From Mariprofundus sp. KV (GTDB taxonomy: Bacteria; Pseudomonadota; Zetaproteobacteria; Mariprofundales; Mariprofundaceae): DNA of 64,000 nucleotides. The DNA lies in assembly GCF_013387475.1 (NCBI RefSeq), contig NZ_VWNB01000003.1, positions 1 to 64,000 of the forward strand, written 5' to 3'. Position 1 is the first letter of the stretch. Each line of letters begins with the position of its first letter. Of the stretch, positions 1-44,643 are shown piece by piece. The position numbers were made by a program, and so were the translations under genes. A model generated the notes under the pieces. It was not told where the DNA came from. It did no database searches and saw only the letters and a program-made list of their open reading frames with translations.

Positions 1-72
1 CAGAAACGCCTCACGGCGCGTCTTGCGACGCTTGTGATCGTATTCCGCTTCCGCAAAACTCAACTGATCCAT
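1..72 (-). CDS. IS5-family transposase, N-terminal 24 codons (cut by window edge)
   Basis: The reverse strand from 72 encodes MDQLSFAEAEYDHKRRKTRR and continues out of the window. The MxQxSFAxAEY...KRxKTRR opening is typical of IS5-family DDE transposases, which cut and paste their own element. A strong ribosome site (AGGAGG) lies about 5 bases before the ATG. Only the start is visible, so intactness cannot be judged. The element end at 127 belongs to the same insertion sequence. Confidence 0.75.
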   Translation of the reverse strand, partial: MDQLSFAEAEYDHKRRKTRREAFL

Positions 73-127
73 AACTCCTCCTGTTCGGAGAAATTATACA
101 GGAATCGACGAGTTATTCAGAGTATCC
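1..127 (-). mobile_element. End of an IS5-type insertion sequence
   Basis: The transposase start lies at 72. Read on the minus strand, the element tip is GGATACTCTGAATAACTCG, beginning at 127. It is followed outward by TTAG (128-131), which fits the 4-bp YTAR target duplication expected of the IS5 group. The other end lies left of the window, so the second target copy cannot be checked. The same tip sequence (GGA-A/T-GC-T/G-CTGAA) is found on the small elements at 14898-15050 and 44494-44573. Confidence 0.7.
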
Positions 128-14862: not shown

Positions 14863-14897
14863 GGTTCGTCGTTAACAGAACCTGCACTTATAGTTAA

Positions 14898-15050
14898 GGA
14901 AGCGCTGAATAACTACGTCCATGTAGTTTTTCAGCACGCAAAGGCAAAAGCGTGGTTTTTCCTTTGCGTGCAAAACCAAGCACTTACTGTGCATGATTTT
15001 GGCAAGCCATCCATCGCTTGCACGGATACTCTGACTTGTTCAGAGCATCC
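14898..15050. mobile_element. MITE, full copy (153 bp), with TTAA target duplication
   Basis: The ends form inverted repeats: left GGAAGCGCTGAATAA, right (reversed) GGATGCTCTGAACAA. TTAA directly flanks both sides (14894-14897, 15051-15054). There is no coding capacity. Inside are three hairpins: CTGAATAACTAC/GTAGTTTTTCAG, GCACGCAAAGG/CCTTTGCGTGC (11 bp, perfect) and the end palindrome GGATACTCTGA-loop-TCAGAGCATCC (15024-15050). Tips and target match the IS5-type element at 1-127. Confidence 0.88.
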
Positions 15051-16610
15051 TTAACGCTCACTGCCTGAAGTTCTGGCGCGGACAACTGTGCATCTGCAGT
15101 AGTTAGGGCCACTCTCGACGATCTCTTTGATCTTGAAATGGATGCTTTCATCGCCATTTCTGATGACAAACACCATATTGCGATAGACACGGTTCTCCGG
15201 AAACCAGGCTGTAAGTGACCCCTTGGCCGGCAGGATAAGCAGAGGCCAGCTGCGTTTGGCATTCATCGCGTTGCTGCCACTCTCAATGCTGGCCTGCACC
15301 ATTTTCACCGGCTGCCGGTACAGTTCAATGCCAAGCCGCTGCTCGCCACTGCGGCTCTGTTTCATCCAGCGTACAAAACCGAGTTTCGGCTGCCCTGAAT
15401 CGGGGAACCAGCTGATGCCGACCATAGAACCGACGGCATCGGAGCGCTGCTCATCCCCATTGAGGCGTTCAACGCAGATGCCGACATCTGTACTGTCGAT
15501 AAGGTGCCACTGCTGGTCTGTCTGGTCGGCTTCGGATTGCTGCGCTGCTTTCTGCAGGAAGGATCTCAGGCTGTTCCATTCAAATATCACATGGGTGTTG
15601 GGGCTGCTGATGCGTTGCCGGCGTTGCGGGTGCGTGGTTAGCGCATCAAGTATGGCATGGCCGCCAACCTGTGTTGTCAGCATCGCCTCTTCGGTATGCA
15701 ACTCATTTCGCTGTCTGTCTCGATTCTCATGCAGCGATTCGATATGTGCGACAGCTCTGTGCAGACGCTGAATAAGGACATCGACCGGGATGATAATCGC
15801 ATCAAAGGGGAGGGAACCCTGAATTGCCTGCATCAATGTCGGAGGGTCATTGGGTCGACTCATGTTGGTGAGCAGGCAGGCCTTGCCGGCAGATACTGGC
15901 AGCTGTGATTGCTGGCGGCAGTAGTGCGCCTGCAGCTGATTGATGTGGTACTCCAGCTCCCTTGCAATCATATGCTGCTGGGCAACGGTTTTGCTGAAGA
16001 AATCGATCGCTCGCAGGAGTTCATGTCTGCAGATGGCGGTAATCAACTGTCTGGCTTTGGGTTTAAGCTGTTCATCCAGAGCGGCGGCAACATCCAGCCC
16101 CAATCTGGCCAGTTCAAAGAACTGGCGCGTGGCAATCACCGGTGTTGCCCGGTACTGCTCAAGCGTGAGTTGCAGTATCTTTACAGCCAGTTCAACAGCA
16201 TTGCCGATCATCTCAACCAGTGGCGCATAATAGCGACTCTCTTTGCGAGCCTCGCTCTGTACCAAATCGATGGCGATTTTGTGTGCGTTGAGCACTGCGG
16301 CTGTCATCTCGCCATCAAACAGATTCAGCTCCTGCTCAAAACGATTGAGCACCTTCATGCGGAAAGAGATCGGGATCAGGGGGTTGGCGTTGAGGCGGCC
16401 GAGATAGCTCTTCATGTTGGCGGTGAGCTGCTTGCGTTCAGCCTCTGAGCTGTTGATAGCGTAAGCGTTTAGTTTACCCTCAATATCAGTGAACGGGAGG
16501 GTGATGGCATCGGTCAGCAGCTCGGCTTTACCGAGATTCAGGCGTTGGGGGTGCAGGCGAAGTTCGGTGTCGAGCGAGAGTGGAATAGCGTTTGGATCAG
16601 AAATATTCAT
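15051..16610 (-). CDS. Conserved protein of unknown function, 519 aa
   Basis: No family was recognised with confidence. There is no signal peptide or membrane helix. The N-terminal two thirds look all-helical ('LPFTDIEGKLNAYAINSSEAERKQLTANMKSYLGRLNANPL...'), with several hydrophobic heptads. The C-terminal part ('WHLIDSTDVGICVERLNGD...VGSMVGISWFPDSGQPKLGFVRWMKQSRSGEQRLGIELY') has the strand pattern and W-x-x-x-[ND]-x-S/T-x-x-G shape of PilZ-like beta-barrels, but a c-di-GMP binding RxxxR motif is not evident. The TAA stop lies exactly in the TTAA target of the mobile element. Because that target existed before insertion, the gene end is unlikely to be altered. Confidence 0.6.
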   Translation of the reverse strand: MNISDPNAIPLSLDTELRLHPQRLNLGKAELLTDAITLPFTDIEGKLNAYAINSSEAERKQLTANMKSYLGRLNANPLIPISFRMKVLNRFEQELNLFDGEMTAAVLNAHKIAIDLVQSEARKESRYYAPLVEMIGNAVELAVKILQLTLEQYRATPVIATRQFFELARLGLDVAAALDEQLKPKARQLITAICRHELLRAIDFFSKTVAQQHMIARELEYHINQLQAHYCRQQSQLPVSAGKACLLTNMSRPNDPPTLMQAIQGSLPFDAIIIPVDVLIQRLHRAVAHIESLHENRDRQRNELHTEEAMLTTQVGGHAILDALTTHPQRRQRISSPNTHVIFEWNSLRSFLQKAAQQSEADQTDQQWHLIDSTDVGICVERLNGDEQRSDAVGSMVGISWFPDSGQPKLGFVRWMKQSRSGEQRLGIELYRQPVKMVQASIESGSNAMNAKRSWPLLILPAKGSLTAWFPENRVYRNMVFVIRNGDESIHFKIKEIVESGPNYCRCTVVRARTSGSER

Positions 16611-44467: not shown

Positions 44468-44493
44468 GGCTGACCGGGATCTGTCAAGCCTAA

Positions 44494-44573
44494 GGATGCT
44501 CTGAAAAAGTCAGAGCATCCATTGCAAACCATGGTTCTGAAAAACTACATGGACGTAGTTATTCAGAGCTTCC
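44494..44573. mobile_element. MITE, short copy (80 bp), with CTAA target duplication
   Basis: Ends GGATGCTCTGAA and (reversed) GGAAGCTCTGAA form 12-bp inverted repeats with one mismatch, flanked by direct CTAA on both sides (44490-44493, 44574-44577). The left 27 bases are a perfect 11-bp stem (GGATGCTCTGA/TCAGAGCATCC). The right 37 bases are nearly identical to the left end of the 14898 element (hairpin CTGAATAACTAC), in opposite orientation. It is a shortened variant of that element. It lies between tldD and the DUF2007 gene. Confidence 0.9.
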
Positions 44574-44643
44574 CTAAAAGATAAGTGGGATTGATTGGCT
44601 GCTCTGTTTGGATTTTGTCTGCGCAGGCTCTATGCTCTGCCGC

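Follow-up and report, generated by a model that had tools for sequence, protein, structure and literature searches.

The 153-bp MITE at 14898-15050 of the window (the whole 64,000-nucleotide stretch of DNA analysed) is probably an element moved by IS5-type transposases that carries a cargo of RNA folded into five hairpins, two of whose loops would bind CsrA. The minus strand of the element consists of five hairpins in a row, numbered H0 to H4 in plus-strand order from the left, and the apical loops of H0 and H3 have the form A(N)GGA(Y), mostly with C-G closing, either as hexaloops or as 5-nt loops without N. The first-pass annotation had read the element as an IS5-derived MITE, which stands, and had missed the main point, its conserved, RNA-like interior. 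The features are given here by position in the window, with the strand and the evidence for each.

14894-14897, unstranded: left target duplication TTAA; read from the sequence.
14898-15050, minus (the strand of the predicted RNA with the A(N)GGA loops): MITE, 153 bp; copies, borders, excess of G.U over A.C.
14905-14934, minus: hairpin H0, 12 pairs, hexaloop AUGGAC (14917-14922) with C-G closing, CsrA-type site; fold, covariation, loop counts.
14938-14967, minus: hairpin H1, up to 12 pairs, conserved loop ACCACGCU; fold, covariation, loop survey.
14971-15001, minus: hairpin H2; fold, covariation.
15002-15021, minus: hairpin H3, loop with AUGGAU (15009-15014), CsrA-type site, closing C-G mutated to G.G in this copy; sequence, fold, loop counts.
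15024-15050, minus: hairpin H4, a 27-bp palindrome in which the right tip is joined to an inward-facing copy of itself; sequence, fold, covariation.
15051-15054, unstranded: right target duplication TTAA, with the TAA that ends the minus-strand ORF 15051-16610; sequence, ORF list.
44491-44577, minus (strand of the BLAST match): second MITE copy in the window, with H1-H3 deleted; BLAST, comparison with a relative.
1-127, minus: left end of an IS5-type insertion sequence, namely tip GGATACTCTGAATAAC and the first 24 transposase codons (MDQLSFAEAEYDHKRRKTRREAFL); sequence, copies, protein match.

The borders of the element are clear. Its tips (left, GGAAGCGCTGAATAACTAC; right, as reverse complement, GGATGCTCTGAACAAGTCA) match, the right-hand tip is a 27-bp palindrome that forms a hairpin of its own, and the TTAA flanks and inverted tips described in the first-pass annotation lie where it had placed them. 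The same annotation called the element non-coding and mobile, and both properties were borne out: no ORF of 100 aa lies inside, and the window's genome holds about 20 copies. BLAST returns 29 matches to the MITE in that genome (13 of them near full length, the remainder fragments or internally deleted), a number that shows it is no chance arrangement, and identical 4-bp flanks, all of them TTAA, TTAG or CTAA, surround 9 of the 13 full-length copies whose site could be scored; further copies with perfect YTAR duplications, which had been proposed as a check, do therefore exist. At the site that matches the shortened second copy of the window, the copy in a relative (G001, locus L105) is full length. 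Elsewhere in the window's genome a solo 27-bp palindrome (GGATACTCTGACTTTTTCAGAGTATCC, at G000:C26:161537-161567) adjoins TTAA and corresponds to H4 of the MITE only; it may have been left by a deletion or be an element in minimal form. At five loci (L128, L178, L213, L284, L289), spread over several genomes, two or three elements lie in tandem; Mariprofundus erugo and a Desulfarculaceae MAG are among the hosts. An empty site, sought among the loci compared by way of joined flanks, was not found, the matches being only orthologous occupied sites or tandem copies; the sole non-tandem match across the junction, L163 against L276, turned out to be an orthologous occupied site.

The tips also tie the MITE to the insertion sequence at the edge of the window. 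The left end of the latter, on the minus strand, reads GGATACTCTGAATAACTCG and adjoins TTAG at 128-131, as the first-pass annotation had it. In this genome the insertion sequence is known from its ends at contig breaks and is never assembled in one piece: the left end occurs in seven copies, every one at a contig end, as expected of a collapsed repeat, and the right end, read from the outside in at the ends of other contigs, is GGATGCTCTGAATAACCCC and adjoins CTAG, CTAA or TTAG. Both ends agree with the MITE tips, whereas a difference between them would have spoken against the first-pass annotation; the tips of the insertion sequence are GGATRCTCTGAATAAC, and many MITE copies match them over 16-17 bases on the left and over about 12 on the right. 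Over 24 aa, the N-terminus of the transposase has 83% identity to a relative's 317-aa protein, which scores 336.6 bits for NCBIfam transpos_IS5_4 (cut-off 140), and a complete relative of the insertion sequence, 1144 bp long with tips GGATACTCTGAAAAACTC / GGAAGCTCTGAATAACTC and CTAG on both sides, is present in another genome of the Mariprofundus group (L059). Mobilisation of the MITE in trans by the IS5-type transposase, as the first-pass annotation had suggested, would account for the shared tips, the YTAR sites and the copy number, and is well supported by them, as far as sequence comparison can carry it. One other gene was considered as the source of the tips and rejected: the DDE_Tnp_1 gene at G000:C5:15511-16191 encodes 482 aa, has a different N-terminus and is IS1182-like by length; it is the only DDE_Tnp_1 match reported in the window's genome. 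At window positions 72-88, minus strand, the start of the IS5 transposase is preceded by ACAGGAGGAGTT, a Shine-Dalgarno; it is pure speculation that this could be a weak CsrA site, in which case decoy RNA might raise transposase output.

What sets the element apart is its interior. On both strands the fold of the MITE has a z-score of -7.8 to -7.9 relative to shuffled sequences, and in a plain MAFFT alignment of 39 non-redundant copies of the Mariprofundaceae type 33 of the 53 pairs have changes on both sides; 90.6% of cells are paired in this alignment, a figure that falls to 79.8% on shuffling and to 33-45% with the partner slid. In the alignment of the distant groups (A2), which was fitted to the covariance model and hence leans towards it, both partners have changed in 52 of 53 pairs, and covariation scores 0.732 (0.163 when shuffled). 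In one orthologous insertion in two Magnetococcales genomes (L163, L276) the arms of H1 differ and complementarity is kept, which can be read either as compensatory change at a fixed site or as conversion between copies. The loop of H1 (window about 14949-14956) is conserved as well, reading ACCRCGYU on the minus strand and varying in distant groups; the CsrA reading leaves it unexplained.

The loops of H0 and H3 are fixed in a way that those of the other hairpins are not. A(N)GGA is present in 83 of 96 H3 loops and 76 of 96 H0 loops versus 0 of 96 for H4, 0 of 96 for H2 and 1 of 96 for H1, in a count that leaves out all loci found through the H3-loop DNA pattern and that includes some loci from a model search slightly favouring the same letters. 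Within the two loops variation is at N and X; A and GGA are nearly constant. The high-affinity CsrA/RsmE site is an ANGGAX hexaloop seated directly on a stem with C-G closing, and RsmZ has 5-nt loops without N (Duss et al. 2014, PMC4005645); a review of CsrA gives the same hexaloop and notes that most selected CsrA ligands have stems shorter than 12 pairs (PMC7652899). The MITE has this form, its stems topped by A(N)GGAX and closed by C-G in both the hexaloop and the 5-nt versions, and the ACGGAU loop of the hcnA ligand (PMC4005645) is the H0 loop of several copies. In the window copy H0 is intact (AUGGAC) and H3 is without its closing pair.

The strand that carries these loops is marked by its mismatches. 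Among 157 distinct elements the A(N)GGA strand has 210 G.U pairs versus 83 A.C pairs, as counted by a hairpin finder to which G.T and A.C are equivalent, and over related copies, so that the p value overstates their independence. Since RNA tolerates G.U, and the other strand would have A.C in its place, this excess points to an RNA of the minus strand and supports selection acting on that RNA.

Element presence follows the presence of CsrA. The window's genome has two csrA genes. Among 398 Pseudomonadota genomes, 219 of which have CsrA, the covariance model, built mostly on Mariprofundaceae copies from the MAFFT alignment, finds the element in 49 (one, G259, unconfirmed on closer search); CsrA is found in 47 of these 49 versus 172 of the 349 others, and the two without it are 69% and 74% complete. 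The association holds within the family, where the element occurs in 36 of 59 genomes with CsrA versus 2 of 15 without (Fisher p 0.001), and outside the order (8 of 156 versus 0 of 164, p 0.003), though shared ancestry weakens these tests and, the copies being related, their small p values overstate independence. Six of seven genomes reached by way of other loci have CsrA, the seventh being a fragmentary MAG. In all, CsrA was not found in three element-bearing genomes (G398, G227 and G275), two of which are 69-74% complete and one of which, G398, has coverage near 1.4x by its contig names; CsrA may truly be absent from these three. One genome (G140) has nine CsrA-family matches and 13 elements.

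Relatives that carry the MITE belong to Mariprofundus and other Mariprofundaceae, strains erugo P3 and micogutta ET2 among them, and with E values of 1e-10 to 1e-23 the covariance model picks up elements of full length in MAGs of Desulfarculales and Magnetococcales. Counts can be high (87 in G038, 52 in G142, 80 in the Desulfarculus MAG G399). The distant groups keep the five-hairpin design with stems of largely other letters and with tips of other types. A second set of MITE tips, GGAGATGCTGATTAA / GGAAGCGCTGATT, is found in a genome that also holds an IS5-type element with tips GGAGATGCTGATTAA / GAAAGCGCTGATCAA (L160, 172 to about 1329), whose transposase likewise matches transpos_IS5_4 well above the cut-off. 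As each of the two MITE tip sets matches an IS5-type element in the same or a related genome, the interior is associated with at least two IS5-type tip sets; beyond these, yet other tips occur on the element elsewhere. A match in Kiritimatiellae (L147) has the letters of H3 only and was taken as chance, and a search of viral contigs with the H3 pattern gave no match.

Insertions of the MITE lie at stop codons at 11 of 20 sites, versus 319 of 1504 other YTAR sites. Since TAA or TAG is part of YTAR, copies often fall right on a stop codon, where an insertion leaves the gene intact; in the window the target duplication holds the stop of the ORF at 15051-16610. With this placement, read-through from the gene would transcribe MITE copies. 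Neither a promoter-like nor a terminator-like site was found at the MITE when its own promoter and an intrinsic terminator were sought. With respect to adjacent genes the RNA strand is sense 38 times and antisense 37 times at stop codons, and 37 versus 35 upstream, and this even division argues against a fixed cis role; cis-regulation through a fixed orientation was rejected on these counts.

The following mechanism can be proposed. IS5-type transposases would move the non-autonomous element by its tips, as the tips, target duplications and copy number suggest, and the minus strand of the cargo would be transcribed, usually by read-through from a neighbouring gene. The cargo RNA is predicted to fold into five consecutive hairpins, a folding backed by covariation, and the A(N)GGA loops of H0 and H3 may bind the two faces of a CsrA dimer, to judge from their match to solved CsrA/RsmE sites and from co-occurrence with CsrA. 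Speculatively, a transcribed copy could then act as a small CsrA decoy or place its host transcript under CsrA control. In several bacterial groups the same cargo appears to travel with IS tips of different kinds. The broader proposal, that a mobile RNA cargo is passed between IS5-type tips and bacterial groups and taps CsrA regulation as a selfish or domesticated genome-wide CsrA decoy, is offered tentatively and is somewhat less probable than its converse. Several points speak against a CsrA cargo: the negative search for a promoter or terminator at the element, the lack of orientation bias, the loss of the H3 closing pair in the window copy, the 12-pair stems and the element-bearing genomes without CsrA. 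CsrA binding by the MITE RNA is put forward here as a prediction from sequence.

An unlikely account, although the best placed of the alternatives, is that of a plain IS5-derived MITE with no RNA function, in which one hairpin arm is copied onto the other at the DNA level (template switching, conversion between copies) and pairing thereby stays perfect. Tips, target duplications and copy number need nothing further than such an element, arm copying would likewise give changes on both sides of a pair, conversion between copies could explain the differing yet complementary H1 arms of the two Magnetococcales genomes, and gene orientation shows no bias. DNA-level repair has no reason, however, to produce a 2.5-fold excess of G.U over A.C on one strand, nor does arm copying sit well with loop letters that stay fixed while stems turn over, or with the order and number of hairpins being kept across distant groups. 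Only slightly less probable is a real structured RNA whose GGA loops serve another partner (an RNA-binding protein, an RNase or RNA pairing), or an element that stabilises or processes mRNA 3' ends like ERIC and Correia: the frequent insertion at stop codons puts many copies in 3' untranslated regions and the conserved H1 loop asks for some explanation other than CsrA, but the loop consensus, the 5-nt variant and the closing pair match the CsrA/RsmE site in detail, and the element follows CsrA from genome to genome. That the hairpins act as DNA, in single-stranded or cruciform structures for transposition or protein binding, is highly improbable, for while they fold equally well on both strands and H4 holds the transposase tip in both orientations, the G.U asymmetry favours RNA and IS5-type DDE transposition is not known to need internal hairpins.

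If the preferred reading of a CsrA-binding RNA cargo is true, its implications go beyond this element. Bacterial MITEs are mostly seen as neutral debris; here a mobile element would directly spread binding sites for a global post-transcriptional regulator, its loops kept while stems and tips turn over, and up to about 80 copies per genome could set the level of free CsrA or rewire the transcripts that CsrA touches. Bacteria may, in that event, be littered with mobile CsrA docking sites.

Among known systems, the name of the TwoAYGGAY RNA motif points to a pair of AYGGAY loops, like those of H0 and H3. That motif was reported from the human gut, Gammaproteobacteria and Clostridiales (Weinberg et al. 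2010, PMC2864571); the MITE differs from it in having five hairpins and mobile tips, and the motif is absent from its Rfam matches up to E 10. ERIC, Correia and QMITE are, like the element described here, small palindromic mobile elements whose folding transcripts can alter mRNA fate (PMC10969869), but they have other tips and another structure; neither that review nor the Coxiella QMITE paper mentions CsrA. With the CsrA-sequestering sRNAs of the CsrB/RsmZ type the MITE shares several hairpins, apical A(N)GGA loops and C-G closing, but it has two GGA loops rather than many, is mobile and multicopy, and shows no Rfam match and no promoter or terminator of its own. Membership in that sRNA family was rejected on the latter grounds, the Rfam search of the MITE and 20 relatives at E up to 10 having given chance matches only. 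MITEs and CsrA-binding RNAs are both known kinds, and the literature searched, the coverage of which was incomplete, gave no description of the two combined, with CsrA-type loops conserved across a MITE family. The element resembles IS5-derived MITEs in being non-coding, about 150 bp long, bounded by IS5-type tips, flanked by a 4-bp YTAR duplication and multicopy; unlike them, it has in place of an IS remnant or random filler an interior of five covarying hairpins, a design common to distant groups with different tips.
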